Source of the DNA: Oscillospiraceae bacterium
GTDB taxonomy: Bacteria > Bacillota > Clostridia > Oscillospirales > Ruminococcaceae
NCBI GenBank assembly: GCA_016288755.1
Contig: JAEELE010000067.1
Coordinates: 1-35,519 of the forward strand
DNA length: 35,519 nt
Direction of reading: 5' to 3'
Shown: positions 10,809-29,390 of the stretch, in pieces
How positions within the stretch are numbered: position 1 is the first letter of the stretch
Layout of the letters: every line of letters begins with the position of its first letter
The notes under the pieces: model-generated
Databases searched by the model: none
Told to the model about the DNA's origin: nothing
What the model saw: the letters and a program-made list of their open reading frames with translations, nothing else
Program-made: the position numbers and the translations under genes

Positions 10809-10884
10809 CCCCGACGGATTTGTAATGGGGCTCCGCCCCAAACCCCGCCAAAGGGACACTGTCCCTTTGGAATCCCGTTTTTTT
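10809..10884 (-). repeat. Tandem-hairpin element, copy 1 (3' of the vor/kor operon)
   Basis: Hairpin 2 (GGGGC/GCCCC with a 3-nt loop, 10827-10839) and hairpin 1 (CCAAAGGGAC/GTCCCTTTGG with a 3-nt loop, 10848-10870) are followed by AATCCCG and seven T. Orientation is given so that hairpin 1 comes first, hence minus. The same order, spacing and flanks occur at 15475-15524, 15585-15633, 22160-22215 and 29322-29390. It begins about 40 nt after the gamma-subunit stop and may terminate that transcript. Confidence 0.8.
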
Positions 10885-10893
10885 GGATAAAAG

Positions 10894-10929
10894 ATCGCCC
10901 CCGGTACCGTGTTTGGTATCGGGGGCGAT
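10894..10929. terminator. Hairpin between vor/kor operon and toxin gene
   Basis: A 15-bp stem (10894-10908 with 10915-10929) has one mismatch and a core of CGCCCCCGGTACC against GGTATCGGGGGCG. It sits 3 nt beyond the toxin stop on the minus strand and downstream of the gamma-subunit gene on the plus strand. The same core, with the same mismatch, recurs at 12076-12110. Confidence 0.7.
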
Positions 10930-10932
10930 TTG

Positions 10933-11246
10933 TTAAAGCACTGCGTCAAGGTCTCTGCGGTTGTAAAGAAAGCGGCGCACTTCCATGACATCATCAATCA
11001 CAACATAGAAAACAGAATAATTGCGAATACTGATGCGGTAGTACGGGTGCGGCCTTTGCTTCGCGGAAGGGTAGGGCTGAAGGCACAGGGCGCGTTCAGC
11101 CGCTCCAAAATGGCCTGTTCCGTATCGTCAACCAGCCTTTCGGCAGCCTGCGGGTTGTGCAGAACCTTTGAGATATAGCTGACTGCTTCTGAAAGGTCGT
11201 CGGCAAAAACCGGCAGATAGCGAAGATGATACTGTTGTTTATCCAA
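10933..11246 (-). pseudogene. RelE/ParE family toxin, frameshifted
   Basis: From a TTG at 11246 the frame reads a ParE/RelE-like N-terminus (YHLRYLPVFADDLSEAVSYI, then NPQAAERLVDD and NAPCAF). Near 11073-11077 it leaves the family sequence and would stop early. One base out of frame, the typical C-terminus continues (HPYYRISIRNY, VFYVVIDDVMEVRRFLYNRRD) to a TAA at 10933-10935. Adding one C in the CCC run at 11074-11076 restores 104 residues. Hence there is a 1-nt deletion, either real or a sequencing error, in a ribonuclease or gyrase-type toxin gene. The start overlaps the antitoxin stop by 8 nt, the usual arrangement. Confidence 0.8.
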
Positions 11247-11493
11247 TTTCGCCCCGTACCTTTCCGAAAACCGCATCATGCGTCATGCGGGCGGAGGTCT
11301 CGGCAGCAAGACGGTCTGCCTCGTCCAGCTTCTGCTCCGTCTCCTCGGTCAGTGCGGCATACTGCTCCAGATTCATCACGACCATTGCGCCGTAGCCGTT
11401 TTTCGTGAGGAAAACCGGATGGCCGCTGCTGACAGCCGCCTCAATCTCTGAAAAATGATTCCGCAGATCGGATACCGGTCGAATATCAATCAT
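11239..11493 (-). CDS. Phd/YefM family antitoxin
   Basis: An 84-residue protein starting MIDIRPVSDLRNHFSEIE, with FLTKNGYGAMVVMNLEQY at about 28-45: the Phd/YefM DNA-binding fold. The C-terminal part, rich in Glu, Ala and Arg, would wrap the toxin. It normally neutralises the toxin encoded downstream and represses their shared promoter. AAAGGAGG precedes the ATG at 11493. The promoter contains three 11-bp direct repeats. Since the toxin frame is broken, the antitoxin may be an orphan or may still neutralise other toxins. Confidence 0.88.
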   Translation of the reverse strand: MIDIRPVSDLRNHFSEIEAAVSSGHPVFLTKNGYGAMVVMNLEQYAALTEETEQKLDEADRLAAETSARMTHDAVFGKVRGEIG

Positions 11494-11505
11494 GGCAATC
11501 CCTCC

Positions 11506-11538
11506 TTTATCAATATTTTATCATAATTTTATCAGAAT
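11506..11538. promoter_or_regulatory. Three 11-bp direct repeats at the antitoxin promoter
   Basis: TTTATCA occurs at 11506-11512, 11517-11523 and 11528-11534, exactly 11 bp apart, with similar AT-rich filler. The repeats cover the -10 box and early leader of the antitoxin promoter. Helical phasing suggests side-by-side protein binding, probably antitoxin autorepression (inferred). Confidence 0.6.
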
Positions 11539-11543
11539 GTCAA
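11515..11543 (-). promoter_or_regulatory. Antitoxin-toxin promoter
   Basis: On the minus strand TTGACA (11538-11543), 17 bp, TAAAAT (11515-11520). It is back to back with the lipoprotein promoter: the two -35 boxes are 7 bp apart. Confidence 0.8.
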
Positions 11544-11550
11544 GAGGTGC

Positions 11551-11579
11551 TTGACATTTTTTGCAGAATATGCTATAAT
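11551..11579 (+). promoter_or_regulatory. Promoter of the Thr-rich lipoprotein gene
   Basis: TTGACA (11551-11556), 17 bp, TATAAT (11574-11579) with an extended TG. It is a full consensus sigma-A promoter only about 27 nt before the start codon. Confidence 0.85.
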
Positions 11580-11605
11580 ATAGCCAGAAAGCGAGGTGTT
11601 CTGCC

Positions 11606-12073
11606 GTGAAACAACGCGCAATGCTGCCGGCGATCTGCGCCGCTGCTCTGCTGACCTCCGCCTGTGCGAACAATTCCTCCTCTGAGCCGGAGACAACGAC
11701 CGCGACCGCTGCGACGACCACGACCACGATCGAAGCGACCACGACCGAAGCGACCACGACCGAAGCGACAACCACAACCGCGACCGAAGCGACAACGACC
11801 GAAGCGACGACCACAACGACCGTCGCGACCGAGACAACAACGACCGCCGCCGGAATGTCTGACAGTGAGATGACGCTGCTCCACGAGCGTATTTCGCGGG
11901 AGGCGGAAGGGCTGTATACGTCTTTCAGCCTGTCCCTGAAGAATCACATGTTCACGGTCGGCTGCGCATCGCAGGAGCAGGAGGACGCTTTTCGCGCAAA
12001 GATCGCCGAGCTGGAAATCGACCCGGAGCTGTTCGTTTATGAACGCTGTACGGGTATCCCTGGGCCGCTATAA
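11606..12073 (+). CDS. Putative lipoprotein with Thr-rich repeat linker
   Basis: A 155-residue protein with a signal peptide (residues 1-19) and a lipobox-like LTSAC ending in C20; Thr at -3 is atypical, so lipidation is probable, not certain. Residues about 28-82 are a low-complexity linker of Thr, Ala and Glu built on a TEATT unit, encoded by a 15-bp tandem repeat. The C-terminal part (about 84-155) is small and globular with two cysteines, and I recognise no family. RBS GCGAGGTG precedes the ATG. Such proteins are usually surface-exposed; no function can be assigned. Confidence 0.65.
   Translation: MKQRAMLPAICAAALLTSACANNSSSEPETTTATAATTTTTIEATTTEATTTEATTTTATEATTTEATTTTTVATETTTTAAGMSDSEMTLLHERISREAEGLYTSFSLSLKNHMFTVGCASQEQEDAFRAKIAELEIDPELFVYERCTGIPGPL
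11695..11845 (+). repeat. Coding minisatellite (15-bp unit) in the lipoprotein gene
   Basis: Units close to GAAGCGACCACGACC repeat in frame and code for the TEATT linker. Copies are degenerate at third positions but the 5-codon period is kept. Confidence 0.75.
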
Positions 12074-12075
12074 GC

Positions 12076-12110
12076 AGCGCCCCCGGTACCGCAAGGGTAT
12101 CGGGGGCGCT
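12076..12110. terminator. Bidirectional terminator hairpin after lipoprotein gene and spoVAC
   Basis: AGCGCCCCCGGTACC (12076-12090) pairs with GGTATCGGGGGCGCT (12096-12110), then TTTGTTT on the plus strand. It separates convergent genes and has the same core as the hairpin at 10894-10929. Confidence 0.8.
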
Positions 12111-12114
12111 TTGT

Positions 12115-12588
12115 TTACGCTGACTGCATCAGCCAGAAAATGATGCCGTAGACCGCGGAAGCCGCTGTGCCGTAGAGGATCACGGGACCCGCAATCGTGA
12201 AGATCTTTGTGCCCACACCGGTGACAAAGCCCTCCGTGCGCGCCTCGATCGCCGCCGCGGAAACCGCATTGGCAAAGCCTGTGACCGGCACGAGCGTCCC
12301 GGCGCCGCCGTGCTTGGCGAGCTTTTCGTAGAGCCCGAGCCCGGTCAGCAGCGCCGAGCAGAAAACCAGCGCGACGGAGGTCCATGTGCCGGCGGTCTCT
12401 GCTTTCAGCCCGGCTGCGAGCAGCATCTGCCGGAGCAGCTCGCCGAGCAGACAGATTCCCCCGCCGATGCAGAACGCCTTTGCCGTGTTGACGGCGGAGC
12501 GGCTTTTGCGCGAGGCGCGGCGCACCATGCTTGCATATACAGCGGGCGCGGGATCGGAGGCGCCCCTTGACTGTACGATCGGATTCAT
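12115..12588 (-). CDS. spoVAC: Stage V sporulation protein AC (SpoVAC)
   Basis: A 157-residue membrane protein with AFCIGGGICLLGELLRQ (about 42-58), LLTGLGLYEKLAKHGGAGTLVPVTGFANAV (about 83-112) and a GVGTKIFTIAGPVILYG segment, all hallmarks of SpoVAC. In spore formers SpoVA proteins move dipicolinic acid across the forespore inner membrane, and SpoVAC itself behaves as a mechanosensitive channel. The ATG at 12588 is preferred to an upstream in-frame ATG at 12606 because AGGGAG lies 8 nt before it. It is the last gene of the suf-DUF3795-ogt operon, 14 nt after ogt. The usual SpoVAD and SpoVAE neighbours are absent here. Confidence 0.85.
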   Translation of the reverse strand: MNPIVQSRGASDPAPAVYASMVRRASRKSRSAVNTAKAFCIGGGICLLGELLRQMLLAAGLKAETAGTWTSVALVFCSALLTGLGLYEKLAKHGGAGTLVPVTGFANAVSAAAIEARTEGFVTGVGTKIFTIAGPVILYGTAASAVYGIIFWLMQSA

Positions 12589-12602
12589 GCAGAACACTCC
12601 CT

Positions 12603-13148
12603 TCACGGGGAATTCTGCCCGTTTCCGCCGAAAATATGTGCATCGGCGGAAATATCTTCGCCCGCCTCGAGCTTCAGCAGCAGGCGTTTTCGTTCAATGC
12701 CGCCCGCATAGCCCGTCAGGCTGCCGTCTGCGCCGATCACCCGGTGACACGGAATCAGGATCATGACCGGATTGCGCGCGAGGGCATTGCCGACCGCCAG
12801 CGGAGACATGCGCGGCTTGCCCTGCGATGCCGCGAGCAGGTCTGCCAGTTCGCCGTAGGTCACGGTACCGCCGCAGGGGATCGACAGCAAAAGCTGCCAG
12901 ACCGACCGCTGAAAGGGCGTCCCGCGCAGATGGATCGGCGGGTGCGTGCGGATGCCGTCCCCGGCAAAATAGCGGTCGAGCAGACGTGCGGTCCCGGTGA
13001 GCAGCGGATGCGGCGCTTCGATATGTACCGGGTCGAGCGTGCTGCGGTCAGCTGACTGTCCGACAAACCGGATGCCGGTCAGCGCACGTCCGTCGCAGGC
13101 AAGCGTCATGTCGCCCAGCGGGGAATGATACCGCGCGGTGTAATCCAT
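12603..13148 (-). CDS. ogt: Methylated-DNA-[protein]-cysteine S-methyltransferase
   Basis: A 181-residue O6-alkylguanine-DNA repair protein. The active-site motif IPCHRVIG holds the acceptor C134, which takes the alkyl group in a suicidal reaction. The DNA-binding part (TPFQRSVWQLLLSIPCGGTVTYGELA, about 77-102) and AVGNALARNP (118-127) are typical. The N-terminal domain is the standard ribonuclease-H-like domain. RBS GAAAGGAG precedes the ATG. It lies between the DUF3795 gene (28-nt gap) and spoVAC (14-nt gap). Confidence 0.93.
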   Translation of the reverse strand: MDYTARYHSPLGDMTLACDGRALTGIRFVGQSADRSTLDPVHIEAPHPLLTGTARLLDRYFAGDGIRTHPPIHLRGTPFQRSVWQLLLSIPCGGTVTYGELADLLAASQGKPRMSPLAVGNALARNPVMILIPCHRVIGADGSLTGYAGGIERKRLLLKLEAGEDISADAHIFGGNGQNSP

Positions 13149-13176
13149 GCCGCACTCCTTTCGCGCAGAAAGCCGG

Positions 13177-13575
13177 TTACCGCTCGCCCGTCCGGATAAA
13201 CCGGATCAGTGCTTCGAGGTCGTCAAATTCGTCGTAATCGCCCATGATGCCGCTGCGGTGATAGACAATCCCCGCCTGTTCATTGCGCTCCAGACAGTCC
13301 AGCAGTGCTTCAACGCCGTATCGCCTTGCAAATTCCGCAAACGCGCGCGCCTTGAGCTTGTCCTGATAGAGCCCCTTGCGGCACTGCGCGGGCTCGCATT
13401 CACAGCACCCCGCAATGCCCTTTTCGAGCACGCATTTCCGGTTTTCGCACCATTCGGCGTCCCTGCACCATGAGAGATCGAGGAAGCCGTCCTGTTTGCA
13501 GCCCTTGCATTCGGCGTTTTCCGAGCACAGACAGCAGGCAAGCCCGCAGCGTGCGATCCCCAGCTCCCGCTTCAT
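13177..13575 (-). CDS. Cysteine-rich DUF3795 family protein
   Basis: A 132-residue protein with 14 cysteines, 13 of them in the first 65 residues (C10, C14, C15, C17, C23, C26, C37, C43, C48, C57, C58, C60, C65). The opening GIARCGLACCLC and the KGC...WC...C spacing match DUF3795 proteins, whose function is not established. The cysteines suggest a zinc or Fe-S site. The ATG overlaps the stop of the SufB/SufD-like gene (ATGA), so it is translationally coupled to an Fe-S assembly operon. That supports an Fe-S-related role, but only by context. Confidence 0.8.
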   Translation of the reverse strand: MKRELGIARCGLACCLCSENAECKGCKQDGFLDLSWCRDAEWCENRKCVLEKGIAGCCECEPAQCRKGLYQDKLKARAFAEFARRYGVEALLDCLERNEQAGIVYHRSGIMGDYDEFDDLEALIRFIRTGER

Positions 13576-14498
13576 TTCAGGAACCCGCTGATGATCTGCT
13601 CCTCGGCTTCGGCTTCGGTCAGACCGAGTGTCATCAGCTTGATGAGCTGCTCACCGGCGATCTTTCCGATCGCAGCCTCGTGCACGAGTGCCGCCTCGAT
13701 GCTGTTTGCCTCGAGCGACGGCACCGCGAGAATGCGCCCCTCATCCATGATGATCGAATCGCACTCGGTATGCCCCGAGCACGCCGCATTGCCGACGACG
13801 CACAGGTCGAGCTTCTGATAGCTCTTGTCACGCGCGACCGAGCGGGACACAACGTCCGCGCTGGAGCCGTCGCCGTTGAGCGATACTTTATAGATGCTCG
13901 ACGCCTCCTGTACGCCGTGGGTCATCAGCCGCTCCCGGACGATCAGCTTCGCATCGGCTTTCAGCTCCGCGACCGTCGTGCGCGCGGTCGAATCGACGCC
14001 CTTGATCTGCACCATCTCGAGCTCGGCGGTCGCGCCCTCCTCAAGATAGAGCTCGGTGACCGGATTCAGGATGCGTTTGCCGGTGCCCTCGCCGGAGCCG
14101 TAGTGCTTTTCGACATAGCGGATGCGCGCGTGTTTGCCGACGAAGAACCGGTGTACGCCGTCGTGCTGCGAATCCTGCGTACCGCAGTTGTCGATGCCGC
14201 AGCCCGCGACGATCAGTACGTCGCTGTCCTCGCCGATATAGAAATCGTTGTAGACCGTCTCCTTCAGCCCGCTCTCGCTCATCACGACCGGGATGTGCAC
14301 GGATTCACGCTTCGTGCCCGGCGCGATGCGGATATCAATGCCGCTTTTGTCGGTCTTCGAGGTGATCTCAATGTTTGCGGTCGACTGCCTGCCGACCGAT
14401 TCGCCGTTCGCGCGGAAATTATAGGCGCCCTCGGGGATATCGTGCAGGTCGGCGACCTCCTGCAAAAGCCGGCGCTGTACTGCGTCCATCTGCTTCAT
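13572..14498 (-). CDS. SufB/SufD family Fe-S cluster scaffold protein
   Basis: A 308-residue protein with the SufB/SufD beta-helix core: VYNDFYIGEDSDVLIVAGCGIDNCG (about 115-139), HFLV-like RFFVGKHARIRYVEKHYG, and the C-terminal AIGKIAGEQLIKLMTLGLTEAEAEEQIISGFL segment. It forms the scaffold complex with SufC on which Fe-S clusters are built. It is shorter than usual SufB (about 470) and close to the single-scaffold minimal SUF systems of anaerobes and archaea. The start is the ATG at 14498, overlapping the sufC stop by 4 nt; the frame continues upstream only inside sufC. No SufS, SufU or second scaffold gene is in the window. Confidence 0.85.
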   Translation of the reverse strand: MKQMDAVQRRLLQEVADLHDIPEGAYNFRANGESVGRQSTANIEITSKTDKSGIDIRIAPGTKRESVHIPVVMSESGLKETVYNDFYIGEDSDVLIVAGCGIDNCGTQDSQHDGVHRFFVGKHARIRYVEKHYGSGEGTGKRILNPVTELYLEEGATAELEMVQIKGVDSTARTTVAELKADAKLIVRERLMTHGVQEASSIYKVSLNGDGSSADVVSRSVARDKSYQKLDLCVVGNAACSGHTECDSIIMDEGRILAVPSLEANSIEAALVHEAAIGKIAGEQLIKLMTLGLTEAEAEEQIISGFLK

Positions 14499-15238
14499 GC
14501 CTGTTCTCCTTCCGTCATGCCGCGGCAGGGGTTCGTCGCATACTGCGAGCCGATGATATCGGGGAGGATCTCCTCCCGGCTGCCCTGCTTCGTCACGCAG
14601 CCGTCCGCGAGCACGATGATCTCGTCTGCGATGCTGAGGATGCGCTCCTGATGGGAGATCACGAGGATCGTGCGGTTGTTCTCGGGGTCGCGCATTTTCT
14701 CGAAGATGCGGATGAGATTGGAGAAGCTCCACAGGTCGATGCCGGCCTCCGGCTCGTCGAAGAGCGCGAGGCGTATGCTTCTGGCGAGCACGGTCGCGAT
14801 CTCGATGCGCTTCAGTTCGCCGCCCGAGAGCGAGGCGTTGACCTCGCGGGAGATATAGTCCTTCGCGCAGAGCCCGACCTCAGAGAGATAGCCGCAGGCA
14901 TCGGAGACCGTCAGGGTCTTGCCCGCCGCAATGCGCAGCAGATCGAGCACGGTGAGCCCCTTGAAGCGCACCGGCTGCTGAAAGGCAAATCCGATGCCCA
15001 TGCGGGCGCGCTCAGTGATGGATTTTTCGGTGATATCCTCGCCGTCGAGGAGAATCTGCCCGTCGGTCGGGCGCTCAATGCCGGCGATCAGCTTGGCAAG
15101 CGTGGATTTTCCGCCGCCGTTGGGTCCGGTGACAACCACGAATTTGTTGTTGTCGACAGTCAGGCTGAGGTCGCGGATGATCTCCTTGTCCTTCCCGTCC
15201 GAATCGGCGGCAAAGCTGAGGTGTCTCAGCTCCAGCAT
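14495..15238 (-). CDS. sufC: Fe-S cluster assembly ATPase SufC
   Basis: A 247-residue ABC-type ATPase. Walker A is TGPNGGGKST (37-46), the Q-loop is FAFQQPV (84-90), the signature is LSGGELKR (137-144), Walker B is LALFDEPEAGID (157-168), and the H-loop is in VISHQE. The FQQP and DEPEAGID forms mark SufC rather than transporter ATPases. It energises cluster assembly on the adjacent scaffold. RBS AAAGGAG precedes the ATG at 15238, which is the first gene of a five-gene minus-strand operon driven by the promoter at 15331-15359. Confidence 0.92.
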   Translation of the reverse strand: MLELRHLSFAADSDGKDKEIIRDLSLTVDNNKFVVVTGPNGGGKSTLAKLIAGIERPTDGQILLDGEDITEKSITERARMGIGFAFQQPVRFKGLTVLDLLRIAAGKTLTVSDACGYLSEVGLCAKDYISREVNASLSGGELKRIEIATVLARSIRLALFDEPEAGIDLWSFSNLIRIFEKMRDPENNRTILVISHQERILSIADEIIVLADGCVTKQGSREEILPDIIGSQYATNPCRGMTEGEQA

Positions 15239-15330
15239 GATGCTCAGCTCCTTTCGGTAATCGTTTTTGCGGCGGTGCCCGGTGAACAGAGTTTTGCCGC
15301 AGTACCGCGGTTTTATGCAGTCTATTCCTT

Positions 15331-15359
15331 ATTATAATACAGATCGTCCGAAAAGTCAA
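15331..15359 (-). promoter_or_regulatory. Promoter of the suf-ogt-spoVAC operon
   Basis: On the minus strand TTGACT (15354-15359), 17 bp, TATAAT (15331-15336). The leader to sufC is about 85 nt. No obvious regulator site is seen. Confidence 0.8.
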
Positions 15360-15374
15360 GACGGCAGAAAAGGG

Positions 15375-15403
15375 TTGACATCGGCGTGAAATCATGGTAA
15401 GAT
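15375..15403 (+). promoter_or_regulatory. Promoter of the HD-GYP gene
   Basis: TTGACA (15375-15380), 17 bp, TAAGAT (15398-15403). It is divergent from the suf promoter, with 15 bp between the -35 boxes. The resulting leader of about 295 nt contains the composite repeat at 15452-15659. Confidence 0.7.
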
Positions 15404-15451
15404 ATCATAGGGATAATACAGGCAGCAGATCTGCTGTTCAGATAAACCGGA

Positions 15452-15659
15452 GTTTGCGGGGCACCGTAAGGTATTGTGGGGGCGCTGCCCCCACACCCCT
15501 GCCTAGGGGATACTATCCCCTAGGAACCCCGCTGCTGCTCGCCGTCCCCCCCTAAAGGGGGGCGCGGTGAGCAGAAATGGGATTCTCAAGGGACAGTGTC
15601 CCTTGAGCGGGAGCCTGAGGGCGGAGCCCTCAGAACATCCCCACAGTACCCCCGCAAAC
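15452..15659. repeat. Composite head-to-head pair of tandem-hairpin elements (copies 2a and 2b)
   Basis: The 468-bp gap 15239-15706 holds two divergent promoters and this palindromic block. Its ends are a perfect 10-bp inverted repeat (GTTTGCGGGG at 15452-15461, CCCCGCAAAC at 15650-15659). Inside are copy 2a in minus orientation (hairpin 2 at 15475-15495, hairpin 1 CCTAGGGGAT/ATCCCCTAGG at 15502-15524), a central inverted repeat (15535-15574) and copy 2b in plus orientation (hairpin 1 CTCAAGGGAC/GTCCCTTGAG at 15585-15607, hairpin 2 at 15615-15633). No credible gene lies in it. Confidence 0.8.
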
Positions 15660-15706
15660 ACTGATTTTGCACTGCGGACGCGGTGCGCTGAAAGGAGCGT
15701 GGTGCC

Positions 15707-17455
15707 ATGCTGGTCAGTCTCATGCAGATCGTCGGGGTGCTGATCCCGCTGGCGGGCTGCATTGCGATGCTGCGCAGCAGATTCGAGAGCAAAACTGCCG
15801 TGCATCTGCTCATGGCGAATTTCGGCTGCATGATCATGAATGCGGGCTGTCTGCTCGTCGTGATCGCCGGGAATTCCTCGGAGGCGATCTCCGCCTTTAA
15901 GACCGAATATCTCGGAAATGCGCTGTTTTACTTCTTTTTCATCATGTTCCTCGCGGAGTTTCTGCAGATCAGGCTGCCGAAGCTGCTGCCGCCGGTCTGG
16001 GCGGGGCTGGAATGTCTGCTGGTCGCAGTCGTCTGGCAGGACAGCCTGCGTGAAAAGCTGATCGGGAATATCTGGTTTGAAAGCGTTGCGGGCTGGAATA
16101 TTCTGTCGGCAGTCGTGCCGCAGTCGGCGCTCTGGCTGATCCGCTGCAGCTGCCTGTGTCTGGTGCTGATCGCCGGGCTGATCTATTCGGCTGTGCGCAT
16201 GGTCCGGACCGATCTGCCCGCCGAGCGCTACACGCTCGCACGGATCACCGGCGCGCAGCTCACGGTCGCGCTCTCACTGCTCATTCAGCTGCTCGCAAAG
16301 CCGAAAGTCGAGATCGTGCCGATCTTTGCGTCGCTCGCGCTGCTGGCGGTGGTCATCAGCGTCTACACGGACGGCTTTTTCGGCATCACCGATTCCGGGC
16401 ACGAGTGGGTCTTCCGGCAGATGGAGGACGCCTACATTCTCACCGATTCGCGCCGCGGCTTCCTCGACGCGAACCCCGCAGCGCTGCGGCTCTTCCCGGA
16501 GCTTGAGAATCTCCGGCGCGGCACGGCACTCCCCGAGCAGATCAATGCCATGCTGGACGAGGAGCACGGGAACGAAGAAGACGGTGCGGAAAGACCCGCT
16601 GCGTCCGGTGTTATGTACGACGGCCGCTTCTACGAGAAAAAGGTCACGCGGCTGGAGAAAAACGGCAGGCTGATCGGCTATGCTCTGCTGCTGGACGACG
16701 ACACCGAGCAGCAGCGCTATTCCAACCTGCTCAGCCGCTACAACAACGAGCTGCAGAACGAGGTCTCCGAGAAGACGCAGCACATTCAGGACGTGCTCAA
16801 TTCGATCATCACCGGCATGGCGAGCGTGATCGAGAGCCGCGACAACTCCACGGGCGGGCATGTCCGCCGCACGAGCCGCGTGGTCAAGGTCTTTGCCAAG
16901 CGGCTGCTGCAGAATGCCGACGAGCTCAATATTGATGCGGCGTTCATCCAGCATGTGATCAAGGCGGCGCCGATGCACGATGTCGGCAAGATCGCCGTCA
17001 AGGACGCGGTGCTGCAGAAGCCCGGGCACTTCACGGACGACGAATTCAACGAGATGAAGCGGCACCCGGCTGCCGGCGCTGCGCTGCTCGAGGAAATTCT
17101 GTGCGAGACCGACGACGAGGAGCTCGCGCGCGTCGCGGTCAATGTCGCGCACTACCACCACGAGCGCTGGGACGGGAGCGGCTATCCGGACGGGCTCAGC
17201 GGGACGGATATCCCGCTGGAGGCGCGGATCATGGCGCTGGCGGATGTGTTCGACGCGCTGGTGAGCCCGCGCTGCTACAAGGAGCCGATGAGCTTTGACA
17301 AGGCGTTTGAGATCATCGCGAAGGGGCTGGGCAGGCATTTTGACCCGGTGCTCGGCGCGATCTTCCTGCAGTGCCGCCCCGAGCTGGAAAAGCTCTACCG
17401 TTCGATGCGCGGCCCTTCGGAATCCGGCTGTGATCCAAACAACGCATCAGGGTAA
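15707..17455 (+). CDS. Membrane-bound HD-GYP domain protein, probable cyclic-di-GMP phosphodiesterase
   Basis: A 582-residue protein with about seven N-terminal membrane helices (residues 1-225), resembling the 7TM sensor region of some histidine kinases. A PAS-like domain follows (about 230-350), then a helical linker and an HD-GYP domain (about 360-560). Catalytic motifs are MHDVGKIAV (about 422-430), HPAAGAALL, and HHERWDGSGYPDGL (483-496) followed by IPLEARIMALADVFDAL. The intact HHE and GYP signatures indicate hydrolysis of cyclic-di-GMP. RBS AAAGGAG precedes the ATG. The mRNA has a long leader with the composite repeat. The sensed signal is unknown. Confidence 0.88.
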   Translation: MLVSLMQIVGVLIPLAGCIAMLRSRFESKTAVHLLMANFGCMIMNAGCLLVVIAGNSSEAISAFKTEYLGNALFYFFFIMFLAEFLQIRLPKLLPPVWAGLECLLVAVVWQDSLREKLIGNIWFESVAGWNILSAVVPQSALWLIRCSCLCLVLIAGLIYSAVRMVRTDLPAERYTLARITGAQLTVALSLLIQLLAKPKVEIVPIFASLALLAVVISVYTDGFFGITDSGHEWVFRQMEDAYILTDSRRGFLDANPAALRLFPELENLRRGTALPEQINAMLDEEHGNEEDGAERPAASGVMYDGRFYEKKVTRLEKNGRLIGYALLLDDDTEQQRYSNLLSRYNNELQNEVSEKTQHIQDVLNSIITGMASVIESRDNSTGGHVRRTSRVVKVFAKRLLQNADELNIDAAFIQHVIKAAPMHDVGKIAVKDAVLQKPGHFTDDEFNEMKRHPAAGAALLEEILCETDDEELARVAVNVAHYHHERWDGSGYPDGLSGTDIPLEARIMALADVFDALVSPRCYKEPMSFDKAFEIIAKGLGRHFDPVLGAIFLQCRPELEKLYRSMRGPSESGCDPNNASG

Positions 17456-17467
17456 ATACCAAGCAAA

Positions 17468-17497
17468 AGCCCCGCAGCTTTATTATGCTGCGGGGCT
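17468..17497. terminator. Terminator hairpin after the HD-GYP gene
   Basis: AGCCCCGCAGC (17468-17478) pairs perfectly with GCTGCGGGGCT (17487-17497), followed by CTGTTTC. It separates convergent genes and probably serves both. Confidence 0.8.
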
Positions 17498-18158: not shown

Positions 18159-18164
18159 ATAGTT

Positions 18165-23160: not shown

Positions 23161-23172
23161 GATGTCCTCCGT

Positions 23173-23715: not shown

Positions 23716-24580
23716 CGTTGCATCTCTCCCTCGTAATGTCAGATTCCGGCATGAGCGCCTGCATATCGGTGCGGAGCGGGCATTTCAGCGTGATGCGTCT
23801 GCCGGCTTCCGGCTCGGTGAAGGTCAGCCAGCCGCAGTGCAGCGCGTGGGCGTGCAGCAGCGTGCAGTCGCCGCCGTAGAGGTCGTCGCCGAGCAGCGGA
23901 TAGCCGATATGTGCCATGTGCACGCGGATCTGGTGCGTCCGACCGGTCTGCAGCGTCAGCATGAGGAGCGTGCAGGTTTCGTTCTCGCGGAGCACGCGCC
24001 AGTACGTGACCGCCCGCTGCCCGTCCGAACGGACACAGCGCGTGATGACCGATGCCTGCGCCCGTGCGATCGGTGCGTCGACAGTGCCCTCGCCGTGCAG
24101 CCCGGGCTTGACCAGCGCGAAATAGCGCTTTTCGACCGTTCCGGAGACGGCATTTGCCGCGTGGGCGTCCTTCGCGATGAGGCAGAGCCCCGAGGTGTTG
24201 CGGTCGAGGCGGTTGACCGCGTGAAAGCCGCAGCCGGGGCGGAACGCGGCGAACCAGTTTGCGAGGGTATCACTGCGGTGCAGCATGGAGGGGTGCACGG
24301 GCATCCCGACGGGCTTGCCGCAGACCAGCAGCCCCTCCGATTCATAGGCAACGGGAACGGAAAGTGCCGCATTTGCGTCGAAATCGCAGTGCTCCGTCCA
24401 GCGCAGCTCGAGCGTTTCGCCCGCACAGACCGTCTGGTCGGTGTGTATCTGCACGCCGCCGCGCGTGATGCCGTCGGGGCAGGCTTTGAGCTGCTTTGTC
24501 AGCTGTGCGGAGACCCCCGCGCTGCGCAGGAGCGACCGCACGGTGCAGGTCTGCTGTGCGGGAATCCGCAGAATCGGCAT
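23684..24580 (-). CDS. RluA family pseudouridine synthase
   Basis: A 298-residue enzyme converting specific uridines in rRNA or tRNA to pseudouridine. The active-site motif HAVNRLDRNTSGL (120-132) has catalytic D126, and KRYFALVKP, LQTGRTHQIRVHMAHIGYPLLGDDLYGG (about 210-237) complete the family signature. The N-terminal part (about 10-60) is S4-like (LLRSAGVSAQLTKQLK, GGVQIHTDQTVCAGETL). The exact RNA target is not clear. It lies 34 nt after the YfcE-like gene and overlaps the next gene by 32 nt. Confidence 0.92.
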   Translation of the reverse strand: MPILRIPAQQTCTVRSLLRSAGVSAQLTKQLKACPDGITRGGVQIHTDQTVCAGETLELRWTEHCDFDANAALSVPVAYESEGLLVCGKPVGMPVHPSMLHRSDTLANWFAAFRPGCGFHAVNRLDRNTSGLCLIAKDAHAANAVSGTVEKRYFALVKPGLHGEGTVDAPIARAQASVITRCVRSDGQRAVTYWRVLRENETCTLLMLTLQTGRTHQIRVHMAHIGYPLLGDDLYGGDCTLLHAHALHCGWLTFTEPEAGRRITLKCPLRTDMQALMPESDITRERCNDETTETDQAL

Positions 24581-24614
24581 GCTTCTCCCTCCTTCGCGGT
24601 GACCGCCGATGCCG

Positions 24615-25124
24615 TCAGAACATAGAATAATGCGGGGACTTCAGGTCACCGTGCGAGGTCAGAAAGCCCTCCGGATAGACGTCGATCAGCCCGAAGGACG
24701 GCGGCTTGCCGTCGCGGGGGCGGGCGGCGCTGCCGGGGTTGAAAATGCGGATGCCGTCGACGGTCGTGTCCGTGCGCCGGTGCGTATGCCCGAAGAGCAC
24801 GAGGTCGCAGCTCTGGGAGTGCCCGAGCCGCGCGAGATTCACGGTCAGGTCGCCCGTCATGTACTCATGCCCGTGCACGGCTGCGAGGCGGTGTCCGTGC
24901 GGGAGATCGAGCACAAGGAGCCGCGGGCTGTGCTGTGTCGGGTCGCAGTTTCCGCGCACATGCCAGACGCGCTCTGCAAATTCCGGGTGCACCGTGATAA
25001 AGCGGTTGAGCTCGGTCTCGCCGTCGCCGCAGTGCACGATCATGTCAATATCAGGGTGCGGCAGGATCGCCTGCTCCAGCGCAAGATAGCTGCCGTGCGT
25101 ATCGGATATTGCAAGAATCTGCAT
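24615..25124 (-). CDS. YfcE/MJ0936-type metallophosphoesterase
   Basis: A 169-residue metal-dependent phosphodiesterase. The five metal-binding motifs of the calcineurin-like fold are present: ISDTHG (6-11), HCGDGE, VRGNCD, HGHEY and FGHTHRR. Relatives such as YfcE and MJ0936 hydrolyse phosphodiesters with Mn2+ or Ni2+; the physiological substrate is unknown. AGGAGG precedes the ATG. It is first in the operon with RluA, the small membrane protein and CPBP. Confidence 0.9.
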   Translation of the reverse strand: MQILAISDTHGSYLALEQAILPHPDIDMIVHCGDGETELNRFITVHPEFAERVWHVRGNCDPTQHSPRLLVLDLPHGHRLAAVHGHEYMTGDLTVNLARLGHSQSCDLVLFGHTHRRTDTTVDGIRIFNPGSAARPRDGKPPSFGLIDVYPEGFLTSHGDLKSPHYSMF

Positions 25125-25153
25125 GAAAATTGCCTCCTGTTCTGTTTTCTCAT

Positions 25154-25182
25154 ATTATAGCATAGAAATAGAACAGCGTCAA
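25154..25182 (-). promoter_or_regulatory. Promoter of the YfcE-RluA-CPBP operon
   Basis: On the minus strand TTGACG (25177-25182), 17 bp, TATAAT (25154-25159), about 30 nt before the start codon. Confidence 0.8.
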
Positions 25183-25220
25183 GGTGAGCTGTCCCGAAAA
25201 CCTGATCGGAGGAGATCAAT

Positions 25221-25466
25221 ATGGAAAAACCGAAGAATACCCCGCAGCTGCAGGCGCTGCTGCAAACGGTCAGCAAAAAGCTCGGGATGCCCGCGGAGAC
25301 CCTGCAGGCAGACCTCGAGGCAGGGCGCTTTGACAAGGCGATCGCGGCGATGAGTCCGCAGGATGCGGCGGCATTTCAGCAGGTGCTCAACAATCCGCAG
25401 CGGCTCAATCAGATCATGAATTCCAAGCAGGCACGGGCGCTGTATCAAAAGCTGACCGGGCAATGA
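25221..25466 (+). CDS. Small conserved-looking hypothetical protein
   Basis: An 81-residue soluble, helical protein without signal peptide. Residues 8-35 form an amphipathic helix pair (LQALLQTVSKKLGMPAETL), then DAAAFQQVLNNPQRLNQIMNSKQARALYQKL. The repeated LNNP/QALY-type pattern recalls short alpha-helical Clostridia proteins of unknown role, but I cannot name a family. GGAGGAG lies upstream of the ATG. It leads three small plus-strand genes spaced 22 and 27 nt apart. Confidence 0.7.
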   Translation: MEKPKNTPQLQALLQTVSKKLGMPAETLQADLEAGRFDKAIAAMSPQDAAAFQQVLNNPQRLNQIMNSKQARALYQKLTGQ

Positions 25467-25488
25467 CACAGCGGGAGGGGGCGCGGGC

Positions 25489-25854
25489 ATGGACGATCTG
25501 AGCGGCAAGCTGCAGTCGCTGCTTTCCGACCCGGAGAGCCTGCAGAATCTGGCGGAGCTCGCGCAGATGCTCGGCGGTCCGGCTCCGGAGGGACCGGGCA
25601 GCGGGACAGAGCAGCCCGCGCAGTCCGCGGACGCGCCCCCGCCGATCGACATGACAAAGCTGCTCGCGGTCGGGCAGGCGATGAGCGCCCTGAAGGAGGA
25701 CGAGACGACAGCGCTCCTGCTGGCACTGCGTCCGCATCTGTCGGCGGAGCGGCAGGCGCGCGTGACAAAGGCGGTGCGTCTGCTGCAGATATTGCGGATC
25801 GCGGCGGTGCTCAGGGAGAACGGGATGCTCGGCGAACTGCTGGGCGGCAGCTGA
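25489..25854 (+). CDS. Small hypothetical protein, helical with acidic/Pro linker
   Basis: A 121-residue soluble protein. Residues 1-28 (MDDLSGKLQSLLSDPESLQNL) resemble the helical tail of the preceding protein, with the same leucine spacing and an xDPESLQNL segment. A Pro/Gly linker follows (about 30-55), then a helical C-terminal domain (LLLALRPHLSAERQARVTKAVRLLQILRIAAVLREN). No known domain is recognised. GGGAGGGGG precedes the ATG. It is co-transcribed with its neighbours by spacing. Confidence 0.7.
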   Translation: MDDLSGKLQSLLSDPESLQNLAELAQMLGGPAPEGPGSGTEQPAQSADAPPPIDMTKLLAVGQAMSALKEDETTALLLALRPHLSAERQARVTKAVRLLQILRIAAVLRENGMLGELLGGS

Positions 25855-25881
25855 CGGGGCAGGCGGAAAGGGGGCGGCAGC

Positions 25882-26214
25882 ATGGCAAACGGGTTTCCGG
25901 TGTGGCGCATGGGGCAGATGCAGCGCAATGACAGGCGTCCGGGGATGCAGGGAATAAATGTGCAGCGTCCGCAGCCGGTCACACAGCCGGCGCCGCCGGT
26001 TCCGGTGCCGATGCCGGAGCCTGAGCCGCAGCGGGAGACGGCGAAGGAGGCACAGAAGGAGGCAAAGAAGGAGGCGCAGCGCGGGAGCGGGCTGCTGCCG
26101 GAGGGCTTTCGGCTGGACCGGGACACGCTGCTGCTGCTGGCGCTGGCGTGGTTATTGTGGCAGGAGCAGGCAGACAAGCGGTTGATACTGGCGCTGATTT
26201 ACATTTTACTCTGA
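25882..26214 (+). CDS. Small hypothetical protein with Pro/Lys-rich middle and hydrophobic C-terminus
   Basis: A 110-residue protein: a Met/Arg/Gln-rich N-terminus, a stretch with alternating Pro (about 32-52), a charged EAQKEAKKEAQ segment, and a C-terminal Leu-rich hydrophobic end (DTLLLLALAWLLWQEQ then RLILALIYILL). The two short hydrophobic segments with an acidic break could insert peripherally or form a hairpin in the membrane. AAAGGGGG precedes the ATG. Function unknown; third gene of the small operon. Confidence 0.65.
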   Translation: MANGFPVWRMGQMQRNDRRPGMQGINVQRPQPVTQPAPPVPVPMPEPEPQRETAKEAQKEAKKEAQRGSGLLPEGFRLDRDTLLLLALAWLLWQEQADKRLILALIYILL

Positions 26215-26236
26215 GGAAATGAGGAATGAGAAATGA
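26213..26236 (+). repeat. Purine heptad repeat (GAGGAAT/GAGAAAT type)
   Basis: Short units of seven bases (GAGGAAA, TGAGGAA, TGAGAAA) directly after the third small gene. The same kind of tract occurs at 29247-29275 and 30923-31003. Confidence 0.5.
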
Positions 26237-26256
26237 TTGCGGGGAGTTTTCGGTTT

Positions 26257-26343
26257 CTGTTCTGAATCGTTGTTCCTGCTGTGATTTTCGCGGGTTCGCG
26301 GGGGATTTTAGTACCCTGTTCTTAACCGTTGTTCCTGCTGTGA
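26257..26343 (+). repeat. Pair of 28-bp imperfect direct repeats
   Basis: The segments 26257-26284 and 26316-26343 share GTTGTTCCTGCTGTGA and most flanking bases, with a 59-bp period. They lie in the 600-bp gene-free gap 26215-26814. Confidence 0.65.
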
Positions 26344-26368
26344 ATTCAGCTGGGCGCGGGGCGCGGGT

Positions 26369-26450
26369 TCGAGGGGGAACCACAAGAGGAAGGGGAAGTC
26401 GGCTGCAAAGCAGCCGGTCTCCCCCTCCCTCTTAAGGTTCCCCCCTCGAG
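26369..26450. repeat. Long fold-back element
   Basis: An imperfect inverted repeat of about 80 nt. TCGAGGGGGAACC (26369-26381) matches GGTTCCCCCCTCGA (26436-26449); inner arms are AAGAGGAAGGGGAAG against CCCCCTCCCTCTT and CGGCTGC/GCAGCCG around an AA centre. No gene and no recognised element. Two related GC hairpins (26529-26562, 26630-26659) follow in the same gap. Confidence 0.6.
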
Positions 26451-26528
26451 CTCCCCTTCCTTATCTCTCTCCCTCTCTGTTCCGTAATCTTAAGTATATT
26501 GGTGATCTGTTAAGCCGTGACCATCACT

Positions 26529-26659
26529 CCCTGCGTGCAGGCTAACCGCCTGCAGGCGGGGGTTGTTGTATCTCCGGTGTTCCGATGAATTGTTTTCTGC
26601 GCGCAATACCGGCGGTTACAGCACAACTCTCCCTGCGTGCGGCTAGCACGCACGCGGGG
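26529..26659. repeat. Two related GC-rich hairpins
   Basis: Both segments begin CTCCCTGCGTGC, one at about 26527 and one at about 26629, and each can fold on itself (26529-26562 and 26630-26659). They lie 101 bp apart in the gap before the VanY-like gene. Confidence 0.45.
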
Positions 26660-26765
26660 CGTAAAGATTACCAGTAAACCGGACACCCAGAAACAAAAGG
26701 TTACGGGACAAACGATAAAGAACAGGGAACAAAAGCCCCCGCAATTATTCCGCATTCTGAAAAAT

Positions 26766-26802
26766 CAGCCGCCCCGTCTTACCAGTGAAAACGGAGCGGC
26801 TG
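26766..26802 (-). terminator. Terminator of the cmk-plsC-VanY-like operon
   Basis: CAGCCGCCCCGT (26766-26777) pairs with ACGGAGCGGCTG (26791-26802) with one mismatch; on the minus strand it is followed by ATTTTT. It lies 12 nt after the VanY-like stop. Confidence 0.8.
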
Positions 26803-26814
26803 TGTGCTGCTTGA

Positions 26815-27846
26815 TTATGAAACCGGCTTCGAGCAGGAAACAACAAAGCCCTGCACATTGTCGCCGTCGACCTGAACCTCGGTGTCTGCCGGGTAGTAAA
26901 TCGTCGTGGTCGTCCCCGTCTGCGAGGCGGGCACATAGTAGATCTCATACGCCGTGTCATACGCGGTGAACTTCAGATGCTGCCCGTCCCACGGATGCTC
27001 GTGCACGAGATTGATGTATTCCTCCAGGCAGAGCTCCTCAGACTGCATGTACAGCGCGTGCGGGATGCCGACATAGCGGAAATGCCACTTGAGCTCCTTC
27101 ATGCCGGTGACCGCCTCCTTGTCAGCGGTGTAGCGCCAGATGAAACCGTATTCCGCGCAGTGCTTGGGGAGCCATGCATAGGCGCCGTTGTCGACATAGG
27201 GCGAGTGCGAGCCGCCGGACTCGTTGAGGATCGCCAGATCGACCGACAGACCCGAGGCGCGCTCCGGAATGTTGACCTGATACGCCGGTGCCATCGGGAC
27301 CTGCGTGGTCGCGTAGACCATCACATTGCCCTGCCCGCTGGTGGTGTAGAAGGTGTTGAACATTCTGACCAGACCGTCCGAGGCGAGGGTGTTGAGCTGC
27401 AGGCTCTTGGTCGGCAGGCGGAAGTGATCGTATTTGATGTGGCTGAAATCGGTCAGCTTGGGGTTGGCGACCAGCGGATGCTCCGCATTGATCAGCAGCA
27501 GCGGACCGGTGTAGACGTCGTTGTTCGAGACCGTGATCGTCTGCGCGTTGGAAATGTCCATCGTGACGGTGGTCTGCGTCGTGCTCGCGGTGGTGATGAC
27601 CGCGCCGCCGGAGAATGACGTCGGCTCGGTGGTCGTCTGCGATTCGGAGGTCAGCGTGGTCGTGTCGGGCAGAGAGGTGCTCGGCTCGATATCGAGCAGC
27701 GAGCTGCTGGAGCTGACGACATTCAGCTTGCCGCGTGCGTTGCCCCAGTCGATCCAGAGCCTGCGGAAGAAATCAACGGCGAAAATTCCGAGGATCACTG
27801 CGGTGAGCACCAGCGCAACTCCTCCGAAATTAAAACGGCGATTCAT
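26815..27846 (-). CDS. VanY/M15-like domain protein, predicted catalytically inactive
   Basis: A 343-residue protein with one N-terminal membrane helix (about 9-28), a Ser/Thr-rich linker (45-100) and a C-terminal domain of D-Ala-D-Ala carboxypeptidase (M15B) type. WLPKHCAEYGFIWRYTADKEAVTGM (225-249) and WHFRYVGIPHALYM (254-267) match VanY closely. However, the SEHQTGLAVD zinc motif reads PERASGLSVD (194-203), so its His is R196. The catalytic Glu three residues before H255 is L252, and the SGYRS segment is not recognisable. D203 and H255 remain. It is probably a peptidoglycan-binding pseudoenzyme; misplacement of the alignment is the alternative. The start overlaps plsC by 4 nt. Confidence 0.75.
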   Translation of the reverse strand: MNRRFNFGGVALVLTAVILGIFAVDFFRRLWIDWGNARGKLNVVSSSSSLLDIEPSTSLPDTTTLTSESQTTTEPTSFSGGAVITTASTTQTTVTMDISNAQTITVSNNDVYTGPLLLINAEHPLVANPKLTDFSHIKYDHFRLPTKSLQLNTLASDGLVRMFNTFYTTSGQGNVMVYATTQVPMAPAYQVNIPERASGLSVDLAILNESGGSHSPYVDNGAYAWLPKHCAEYGFIWRYTADKEAVTGMKELKWHFRYVGIPHALYMQSEELCLEEYINLVHEHPWDGQHLKFTAYDTAYEIYYVPASQTGTTTTIYYPADTEVQVDGDNVQGFVVSCSKPVS

Positions 27847-28499
27847 GAATGTAAGTCTCCCTTCTGTTCAGAAGCATTTTTCTTTGCGGGCTGTGCCTCC
27901 TCGGGCAGCAGCGCGCAGACATGCTGCGTCATCTCCTGCCGCACAGACTTGAGCACGGCGACGGAGGGATTTTCCATTGTGGTTTGCTGAATCGTGAATG
28001 GCTCCCCGATCCGCAGGGTGATGCGGCTGCGGAAATGCAGCTTCAGACCCTTGAATGAGATGCCGACGGGCACGACGGGCACACCGGTCTGTGCAGCGAT
28101 CAGCGCCGCACCGGATTTGAACCGCGCGAGCCTGCCGTCCTTCGAGCGCGTGCCCTCGGGGAAGATCAGTGCGTTTTCGCCCTCTCTGAGACGGTCGCTG
28201 AGCTCCTGCAGCGGCGACAGATCGCCCGCGCCGCGGTCAACGGCAACAGCCCCGAGATTCTTGAGCAGCCAGCCGACCGCACCGTGCGAGAAGAGCTCCT
28301 GCTTTGCAAGAATGAAAAAGCGCTTCTTCGGGCAGAGCAGCGGGATGAGGATCGCGTCTGCCATGCTCCGGTGATTGCTGATGAACAGATAGCCGCCCTC
28401 CAGCGGGAGATTCTCGGTGCCTTCGCGTCTGATCCTGAAGCACAGCGGCATCACGATCTGCATCACATGCACGGAGAACCGATAAAATGCGTTGCTCAT
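27843..28499 (-). CDS. plsC: 1-acyl-sn-glycerol-3-phosphate acyltransferase
   Basis: A 218-residue membrane-associated acyltransferase that makes phosphatidic acid from lysophosphatidic acid. NHRSMAD gives the catalytic H43 and D48 (HxxxxD), and FPEGTRS (113-119) binds the phosphate of the acceptor. A further block PVVPVGI (about 140-146) is typical. The cmk-plsC order is common in Firmicutes. The start overlaps the cmk stop by 4 nt, and the stop overlaps the next start by 4 nt. Confidence 0.92.
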   Translation of the reverse strand: MSNAFYRFSVHVMQIVMPLCFRIRREGTENLPLEGGYLFISNHRSMADAILIPLLCPKKRFFILAKQELFSHGAVGWLLKNLGAVAVDRGAGDLSPLQELSDRLREGENALIFPEGTRSKDGRLARFKSGAALIAAQTGVPVVPVGISFKGLKLHFRSRITLRIGEPFTIQQTTMENPSVAVLKSVRQEMTQHVCALLPEEAQPAKKNASEQKGDLHS

Positions 28500-29167
28500 A
28501 ATCCCAGCTTCTCCTGACAGACCGCATAGAGCATGTCCTCGGACTGATCGAGGTCTGCAAAAGAGGTATCGACCACGACCGCGTCCGCAGCCTGCCGCAG
28601 CGGTGAAATCTCACGCTCGGTATCCTGCCTGTCGCGCTGAACGACATCGTGCAGCACCGCCTCGTAGGTCTGCACGCCGGGCTGCTTTTCCTGCAGCTCC
28701 TTAAAGCGCCGCAGCGCACGGATGGCAGCTGAGGCGGTCAGAAAGATCTTGACGTCGGCATCGGGCAGCACGACCGTGCCGATATCGCGCCCGTCCATGA
28801 CGACGGAATGCTCCCTTGCCATGCGCTGCTGCAGATCGAAGAGGAACTGCCGCACCTGCGGGATCGCAGAGACGCGGGAGGCACCCATCGAGACAGCGGG
28901 GGTGCGGATGAGACCGGAAACATCGGTGCCGTTGAGCAGCACATGCTGTGCGCCCTCCTCATAGCGGAGGGAAATATCGAGCGCGGGGAGCAAGGCAATG
29001 ACCGCTTCGTCGGTCTGCGCATCCTGCTCCAGCGCGGCATAGGCAATGGCGCGGTAGAGTGCGCCGGTATCGACATAGATAAACCCGAGACGTGCCGCAA
29101 GGCGTTTTGCCAGAGTGCTTTTTCCGGCGCCGGACGGTCCGTCAACGGCAATGCTGACAGCTTTCAA
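28496..29167 (-). CDS. cmk: Cytidylate kinase
   Basis: A 223-residue (d)CMP kinase. The P-loop is DGPSGAGKST (9-18), YVDTGALYRAIAYAAL follows (about 28-43), and DGRDIGTVVLPDADVKIFL (about 137-155) is the NMP-binding signature. The start is a TTG at 29167 with GGAGGTG 7 nt upstream; the protein then opens MKAVSIAVDG as in homologues, whereas the in-frame ATG at 29197 has no such support. It leads the cmk-plsC-VanY-like operon. Confidence 0.93.
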   Translation of the reverse strand: MKAVSIAVDGPSGAGKSTLAKRLAARLGFIYVDTGALYRAIAYAALEQDAQTDEAVIALLPALDISLRYEEGAQHVLLNGTDVSGLIRTPAVSMGASRVSAIPQVRQFLFDLQQRMAREHSVVMDGRDIGTVVLPDADVKIFLTASAAIRALRRFKELQEKQPGVQTYEAVLHDVVQRDRQDTEREISPLRQAADAVVVDTSFADLDQSEDMLYAVCQEKLGL

Positions 29168-29205
29168 GACACACACCTCCGTCAGTGGATACTCCAATCT
29201 CTATT

Positions 29206-29234
29206 AGTATAACACATTCTGACGGTTTTTGCAA
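29206..29234 (-). promoter_or_regulatory. Promoter of cmk operon
   Basis: On the minus strand TTGCAA (29229-29234), 17 bp, TATACT (29206-29211), about 35-40 nt before the TTG start. Confidence 0.7.
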
Positions 29235-29246
29235 GTGTATTGCGAA

Positions 29247-29275
29247 AAATGAGAAATGAGTAATGAGAAAAGCGG
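29247..29275 (+). repeat. Purine heptad repeat
   Basis: AAATGAGAAATGAGTAATGAGAAA-type units of seven bases between cmk and copy 4 of the tandem-hairpin element. Confidence 0.5.
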
Positions 29276-29321
29276 AATAAGAATTGCGATTTTTGGGCAT
29301 GAGTAAACAGCATTTCTGCAA

Positions 29322-29390
29322 AAATGGGATTCTTAAGGGACTTTGTCCCTTAAGCGGGGCATGGGGCAGAGCCCCATTATAAATCCATCG
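29322..29390 (+). repeat. Tandem-hairpin element, copy 4 (3' of mreB)
   Basis: Hairpin 1 (CTTAAGGGAC/GTCCCTTAAG, 29332-29354) and hairpin 2 (ATGGGGC/GCCCCAT, 29361-29377), then TATAAATCCATCGG, nearly identical to the flank of copy 1. On the minus strand it begins 24 nt after the mreB stop and ends AATCCCATTTTT. Confidence 0.8.

Follow-up and report, generated by a model that had tools for sequence, protein, structure and literature searches.

The stretch of DNA analysed here, 35,519 nucleotides long and referred to as the window, is a single contig (JAEELE010000067.1, C90) of the draft genome of an Oscillospiraceae bacterium, which comprises 3.47 Mb in 141 contigs. Judged by ScpB, with identities of up to 80%, the closest named relatives in a search that may lack the species itself are genomes of uncultured Ruminococcus and Oscillospiraceae, several of them named after rumen or faeces, and the host probably belongs with these. 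An earlier note had reported five tandem-hairpin elements in this window, and all five are present as copies of one structured module. Read in its own sense, the module runs from G(G)TRTC through a mini-hairpin (P0, which includes the TC of this motif), ATT, a hairpin (P3), a pyrimidine strand and a further hairpin (P2) to AATCCC. The earlier note knew P2 as its stem 1, the pyrimidine strand as its spacer and P3 as its stem 2, and drew the copy boundaries too narrowly, since outward reading of loci in the same genome showed that the module extends further. Modules stand singly behind genes or form inverted pairs, and what had been described was one half of such a pair. In families A and B, about 45 bases of central sequence separate two units in inverted orientation; the centre of family C is a hairpin that varies between copies, and its outer ends differ from those of families A and B. 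We consider it probable that the modules are parts of genus-wide, non-autonomous miniature inverted-repeat transposable elements (MITEs), moved by an IS1182-family transposase that duplicates palindromic terminators.

Copies 1 and 2 in the window (units e1 and e2) are oriented opposite to copies 3-5. The features are listed below, where ORF denotes an open reading frame, TIR a terminal inverted repeat, R1 a covariance model built from 29 units, and third strand the pyrimidine strand in the fold proposed further on.

10789-10880, plus strand: solo unit e1, located 2 nt past the stop codon of ORF 10250-10786, without a TIR; R1 match 10816-10877; P0 region with an extra hairpin insert, P3 10826-10840, pyrimidine strand 10843-10846, P2 10848-10870, AATCCC 10871-10876, then a T run.
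15444-15668, no strand assigned: family C inverted pair made up of e2, a central hairpin and e3; its outer ends lie close to AAACCGGAGTTTGCGGGG / CCCCCGCAAACACTGATTT, its limits are approximate, and it lacks an IS1182-like TIR.
15468-15531, plus strand: unit e2; P3 15475-15495, pyrimidine strand 15496-15500, P2 15502-15524.
15535-15574, no strand assigned: central hairpin of the family C pair, its sequence varying from copy to copy.
15578-15641, minus strand: unit e3; P2 15585-15607, purine counterpart of the third strand 15609-15613, P3 15615-15633.
22100-22230, minus strand: family A MITE relic with a remnant of one unit (22100-22117), the centre (22118-22159) and the full unit e4; TIRs lost, outer limits approximate.
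Within this relic, minus strand: unit e4; P2 22167-22189, third-strand counterpart 22191-22195, P3 22197-22215; R1 match 22160-22223.
29322-29398, minus strand: solo unit e5, located 2 nt past the stop codon of ORF 29401-30417 (minus strand), without a TIR; R1 match 29325-29386; P0 29385-29398, P3 29361-29377, third-strand counterpart 29356-29359, P2 29332-29354, AATCCC and a T run.

The description of the first stem proved accurate: P2 is a perfect 10-bp stem with a 3-nt loop in all five copies, and columns 2, 3, 5 and 10 carry matched changes on both arms. Other details needed adjustment. The second stem has the 3-nt loop ascribed to it and measures 6-9 bp rather than 5-9 bp, the GGGATT flank holds in four copies and reads GGGGTT in copy 2, and the C(A)GGGG spacer fails in copy 3, which reads CGGGAG. 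Folded as single-stranded DNA, all five copies performed better than their dinucleotide shuffles (z of -3.0, -5.6, -5.4, -6.5 and -4.5 for copies 1-5). The plan of the family C pair was also found in three other genomes of the genus (G010, G020 and G028). As a separate observation, P3 is interrupted in some units, where a further small palindrome (around GCTTCGCTATGAGTTTGC and GCAAACTCACC) has apparently nested as a repeat within its loop or arm; such units occur at L020, L022, L029, L033, L061 and L083 in the genome of the window and at L269 in G005.

The five copies belong to a large family. A 29-base pattern for stem 1 matched 38 times in the 3.47-Mb genome, and the reversed pattern did not match at all; 14 of the 38 matches lie within 120 bases of a contig end, as expected because near-identical repeats break draft assemblies. 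With the R1 model, at least 137 matches at E<=0.01 were obtained among the 150 candidates scored in this genome, 21 of the 137 covering only the P2 part of the model because the P2 palindrome also matches when read from the other strand. Matches were present in 29 of 30 genomes of the genus, this one included, and ranged from 3 to at least 149 per genome in the 28 congeners (150 scored candidates). The suggestion that the copies are not explained by simple duplication is not supported: they come from a repeated family with near-identical subfamilies, and each of the five either stands as a solo module or has its place in a larger or decayed element. In agreement with the earlier note, no match to a described RNA family at the Rfam gathering score was found anywhere in the window.

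Evidence for mobility comes from the ends. Many module pairs terminate in a 16-bp TIR with the consensus CAGNYTRTMGAWAAAG, which has 53 exact matches in the genome; when one mismatch is also admitted there are 27 forward and 40 reverse matches, compared with 4 and 4 for a backwards-pattern control. The mobile copies share one plan (TIR, module, short centre, inverted module, second TIR) and a length of about 200-265 bp, and modules with TIRs also occur in G004, G005, G008, G017, G023 and G027. Exact TIRs with enough flanking sequence were examined for an adjoining hairpin, defined by a score of at least 8 and an end 0-2 nt from the TIR. A terminator-like hairpin lies directly outside 43 of 50 TIRs in this genome and 32 of 37 in other species, as against 60 of 5000 random positions within the same element-rich loci. 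Its foot is 0 or 1 base from the TIR in all 43 cases of this genome, among which 32 different hairpin sequences are represented. An A tract, which is a T tract for transcription in the opposite direction, occupies the far side of the hairpin in 33/43 and 24/32 cases, respectively (control 961/20000).

Two observations concern these landing sites and ends. At L015/L040 (C34:6497-6528) a family A element adjoins the P2 hairpin of another unit, suggesting that P2 can itself act as a landing site. At L239 and L242 of G013 the same TIR and flanking hairpin enclose a different inner sequence (TATGGGGGAACCCC...), perhaps representing further MITE families of the same insertion sequence (IS).

The flanking hairpin is in many cases found on both sides of the inserted element. 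Among 17 candidate TIR pairs with both flanks in one locus, 10 have the whole hairpin as a direct repeat of 17-33 bp on either side; these ten comprise nine MITEs of 204-263 bp and one IS, and are distributed over the genome of the window, G005, G007, G023 and G026. When ends at contig breaks are included, the genome of the window alone has 13 duplicated pairs (repeats of 23-35 bp, 11 without a mismatch, 8 across contig breaks), every one of which joins a left-type with a right-type end. In total, 18 insertions show the duplication, 13 in this genome and five in congeners, with five pairs being common to both counts.

The IS among these pairs identifies a candidate source of the transposase. 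At locus L164 of G007 (1269-2904) a whole IS of 1636 bp has TIRs at both ends, one mismatch from the consensus at 1269 and exact at 2904, and is flanked by an identical 28-bp hairpin repeat; the MITE ends fit the same 16-base consensus as the IS ends. Its transposase frame is open over 505 codons, 499 of them counted from the first Met onwards; it matches NF033551 (IS1182) with E=2e-127 and 426 bits against a cut-off of 270, and also matches PF13751, PF05598 and PF01609. A second ORF, at L162 of G026, scores 332 bits with NF033551, above the same cut-off, with the profile matched only to position 418 of 488. On these profile matches, the autonomous partner with the same ends is assigned to the IS1182 family. 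In the genome of the window, the starts of three contigs fall within a different element that has the same TIR; one of these starts was read and leads into what looks like a promoter and an ORF beginning with MLSENRAERNQMEFFCI. A segment of 141 bases from this IS end matches DNA in 17 of the 30 genus genomes, this one included, some of the matches being short. Locus L121 resembled an IS end and was discarded because inspection of its ORFs by eye found no transposase. The gene beside an intact element at L049 (1-1257) has an end that we take to be a dockerin-like repeat, and the ORF ends in L171 and L173 look similar.

From these observations we infer action in trans, cruciform recognition, decay into solo modules and preserved termination, which could be combined as follows. 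The transposase of an IS1182-family element would cut IS and MITE ends alike. Its target, as a rule a transcription terminator, would be a palindrome that is extruded or recognised in some other way, and the ends would be joined at the 5' foot of each palindrome arm. Gap repair would then copy the palindrome, so that the complete hairpin flanks the element on either side in direct repeat. With age, copies would be stripped of their ends and persist, as seen in the window, in the form of pairs or solo modules lying between a stop codon and a terminator. The outer T tracts would not be displaced, and the genes on either side would thus each still run into an intact hairpin with a T tract, one element further on. 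If so, landing would be nearly harmless, which could explain the copy number.

Several results weigh against this explanation or limit it. Seven of the 17 candidate pairs have no duplication (L010, where the left hairpin is cut short; L045, with two different hairpins; L061 twice, one of them a mispairing; L086; L103; and L231), and 7 of 50 TIRs in this genome and 5 of 37 in congeners have no hairpin of score 8 or more at their foot. An empty site was not demonstrable for the insertion at L119: the neighbouring protein (ScpB by Pfam) gave 24 loci, of which L323 (56% identity) was left out, and by eye none of the remaining 23 scpB loci has the next gene of the genome of the window. No complete IS body was found in the draft, which also has no match to PF13751, perhaps because a multi-copy body was not assembled or binned. 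The R1 model detected no module in L162 or L164, and thus the modules are not simply a deletion product of the IS. A further point concerns the window itself, since no TIR, allowing up to one mismatch, is present at any of its five copies; e4 keeps the centre and half of a family A element, and, as none of the five keeps its ends, their origin by the MITE route is an inference. Ends without a TIR are common: they account for 16 of 38 unit 5' ends in this genome, with 3 further ones in doubt, and for 30 of 54 in congeners, with 7 in doubt. By eye, these sequences diverge directly upstream of G(G)TRTC, where the search pattern was anchored and which is therefore not a measured boundary, and most show no eroded TIR. 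Random decay would not predict this absence, and the module may also be an independent unit that spreads or is kept on its own. As an observation apart, the cut in the left hairpin copy of L010 (C17:6881-7113) falls at CGGCAGGCT, a sequence that the right copy also contains and that is similar to the beginning of the TIR, suggesting a deletion through microhomology.

Whatever the route of spread, the arms of stem 1 covary strongly in a larger set of units. This set comprised 101 distinct units from 25 genomes, parsed from loci of this genome and of congeners, the latter taken from the top-scoring matches listed; units of one genome are related, so that Fisher tests on them are not independent, and the shuffle controls preserve composition, not relatedness. 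Units had to have at least 8 of 10 pairable P2 positions (G-T allowed) and a pyrimidine strand of 4-6 nt, a filter that raises pairing, and arm-to-arm pairing of P3 was a requirement of the parser and hence gives no test result. Watson-Crick pairs made up 99.0% of P2 cells, compared with 77% (maximum 80%) when the 3' arms were shuffled, and all ten pairs were kept in 92 of the 101 units. Two-sided changes were seen in columns 2, 3, 5, 9 and 10, and in column 4 in one unit only. P0 behaved similarly: of 70 candidate sites, 63 kept three pairs and a 3-nt loop, as against a mean of 24 and a maximum of 35 after shuffling, and some of the seven remaining sites resemble chance matches.

The spacer of the earlier note takes part in the covariation, following the purine arm of P3 in mirror register. 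In the 82 of 101 units in which arm and strand are both 5 nt long, the mirror register fits 399 of 410 cells and the antiparallel register 271 of 410, and among the 64 units with an A in the arm, 61 match all five positions in mirror register and none in the antiparallel one. Mirror position 2 has 23 A-T and 59 G-C combinations without exception, and position 5 has 41 A-T, 30 G-C and 11 G-T. With one type counted per genome, position 2 remains clean (A-T 14, A-C 0, G-T 0, G-C 23), and position 5 is weaker (A-T 9, A-C 0, G-T 10, G-C 18). One hypothesis suggested by this pattern is an intrastrand triplex in which the pyrimidine strand lies on P3. The BoxC/PIT/TM motifs described in sections of PMC4666352 likewise combine a hairpin of purine and pyrimidine arms with a mirror-related third strand, and by the definitions given there the module would be class I on its G-rich strand and class III on the other. 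Unlike those motifs, for which at least 6 triads were searched according to these sections, the module has five triads and is part of a mobile element. This shortfall, the restriction of variation to two columns, the 11 G-T exceptions among 82 units at position 5 and the weak per-genome table there are consistent with an alternative in which there is no triplex and the mirror match goes back to a small number of ancestral types or to a competing duplex of GAG/CTC that involves the purine arm. Antiparallel GAG/CTC pairing is possible and would cover position 2, but it would leave position 5 unexplained, and the alternative must also contend with the advantage of the mirror register in cells and units and with the clean per-genome table at position 2. 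We give this alternative about even weight.

The arm-to-arm covariation could also have arisen by mutation, without selection. Template switching inside a palindrome can rewrite one arm to match its partner, and for this reason covariation between arms is by itself no proof of selection; transposition would then spread the resulting variants. Arms that match with few wobble or other intermediates, near-identical subfamilies and a symmetry that continues through the loop (the 3-nt P2 loop is A-N-T in 87 of 101 units) would all fit such a process. Arm copying does not explain the mirror match at positions 2 and 5 of a strand that lies outside the P3 palindrome, and P0 retains its pairing as P2 does. 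We regard a purely mutational origin as rather unlikely.

A further possibility is that the module works as RNA at the 3' ends of mRNAs, as a terminator or stabiliser resembling repetitive extragenic palindromes (REP); its covariation would then reflect RNA folding, and its mobile history would be secondary. The positions of the units suit this idea. By heuristic ORF calls, which covered the 31 units in loci of this genome that have 700 nt of sequence to either side, 28 lie between genes and 20 of these 28 follow a gene in their own sense, and TIR-less ends fall within 15 nt of a stop triplet (any frame, no control) in 11 of 16 cases in this genome and 24 of 30 in congeners; a T run also follows AATCCC in many copies. 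Insertion at terminators would, however, give the same position. The pair statistics point the other way, since the non-pairing P2 cells, among 1010, comprise 2 of G-T type, 5 of A-C type and 3 others, and thus give no sign of the wobble tolerance expected under RNA selection, although these numbers are small and the filter favoured pairing. The A-N-T loop continues the DNA palindrome through the loop, a symmetry that belongs to double-stranded DNA and is unnecessary for an RNA hairpin. None of the five window copies meets a simple terminator rule, about 7 nt separating stem and T run, and a consensus scan of 10500-30000 for a GC stem directly followed by a T run called none of them, so that a terminator family was set aside. 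The earlier note had left the choice between an RNA and a cruciform target; the lack of a wobble signal and of terminator calls narrows it towards DNA, which the pair statistics favour for the fold of the module, and we judge an RNA element unlikely.

Classical REP/REPIN elements, for which a RAYT (Y1 tyrosine transposase) provides the movement, resemble the modules in being hairpins in high copy number at 3' positions, and palindromic intergenic modules, single or in inverted pairs downstream of genes, are how REP, BIME and REPIN sequences are presented in PMC3733652, yet this identity is highly improbable and was set aside, because Y1_Tnp (PF01797) has no match in the genome of the window and, by profile match alone, is found in 3 of 30 genus genomes as against 29 of 30 for the modules, no GTAG or CGTC tag stands at the stem-1 feet of the five window copies (GGG[AG]TT and C[AG]GG), and the mobile copies have target duplications and share their ends with a DDE-type IS.

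Elsewhere in the window, two back-to-back promoter-like sites were noted at 11515-11579, matching 12/12 positions on the plus strand and 11/12 on the minus strand, and two overlapping open frames of more than 1200 codons occupy opposite strands of 18383-22153, of which at most one is likely to be a gene.

The kind of system that we prefer, MITEs of an IS and IS1182 members that target hairpins, is known. The ISfinder table gives target repeats of 0-60 bp for the IS1182 family; long repeats may thus already be on record in numbers, perhaps without an explanation. The passages on IS1272 and TnSha1 of staphylococci in PMC4923244 and PMC5678879 describe IS1182-family elements with 16-bp terminal repeats that target hairpins, often terminators, without sequence consensus, and the system described here shares the transposase family, the length of the ends and the hairpin targets. 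According to the same passages IS1272 deletes or replaces the target hairpin and makes no target duplication, whereas here the whole hairpin is duplicated; the legend to Fig. 13 of PMC5678879 draws a hairpin-duplicating outcome as pathway b, one possible branch of the model proposed there, beside the route of IS1272 itself. As in the IS1182 family generally, NF033551 is matched above its cut-off and TIRs flank the gene of the G007 element. A Paracoccus IS1182 member tabulated in PMC3281130 has 16/16 ends and a 4-bp repeat, unlike the whole-hairpin repeat seen here. Bacterial MITEs, as characterized in sections of PMC10969869, are short, lack a transposase, share their ends with an IS, have target duplications and often lie near gene 3' ends; the present elements agree in the size of the nine duplicated copies and in their IS-like ends, and differ in having structured inner modules and a duplication that spans a whole hairpin. 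In open papers we recognised neither this repeat nor whole-hairpin duplication by an IS1182 element, and as far as these searches show, the duplication in 18 insertions and the covarying three-hairpin module with its mirror strand are new.

Under our preferred explanation of MITEs moved by an IS1182-family transposase, the inner folds may be kept for a step at the DNA level, such as transposase binding or movement through single-stranded DNA. A more far-reaching form of this explanation, which we put forward tentatively as a possibility, is that transposition is guided by structure: the transposase would attack the 5' feet of an extruded terminator palindrome and copy the terminator, so that landing is near-neutral, and the DNA fold of the MITE (P0, a mirror third strand on P3, P2 and the 3-nt loops) would be read as a shape whose stems drift while their pairing is kept. 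The passages of PMC4666352 on the E. coli triplex motif state that mobility genes were never found around it, and the present results place a triplex-like mirror-repeat motif inside a mobile element. These insertions could explain the presence of up to a hundred or more modules near gene ends in genomes of one genus. Finally, they provide a natural, many-copy case of whole-hairpin duplication, which makes cruciform recognition by these transposases directly testable.

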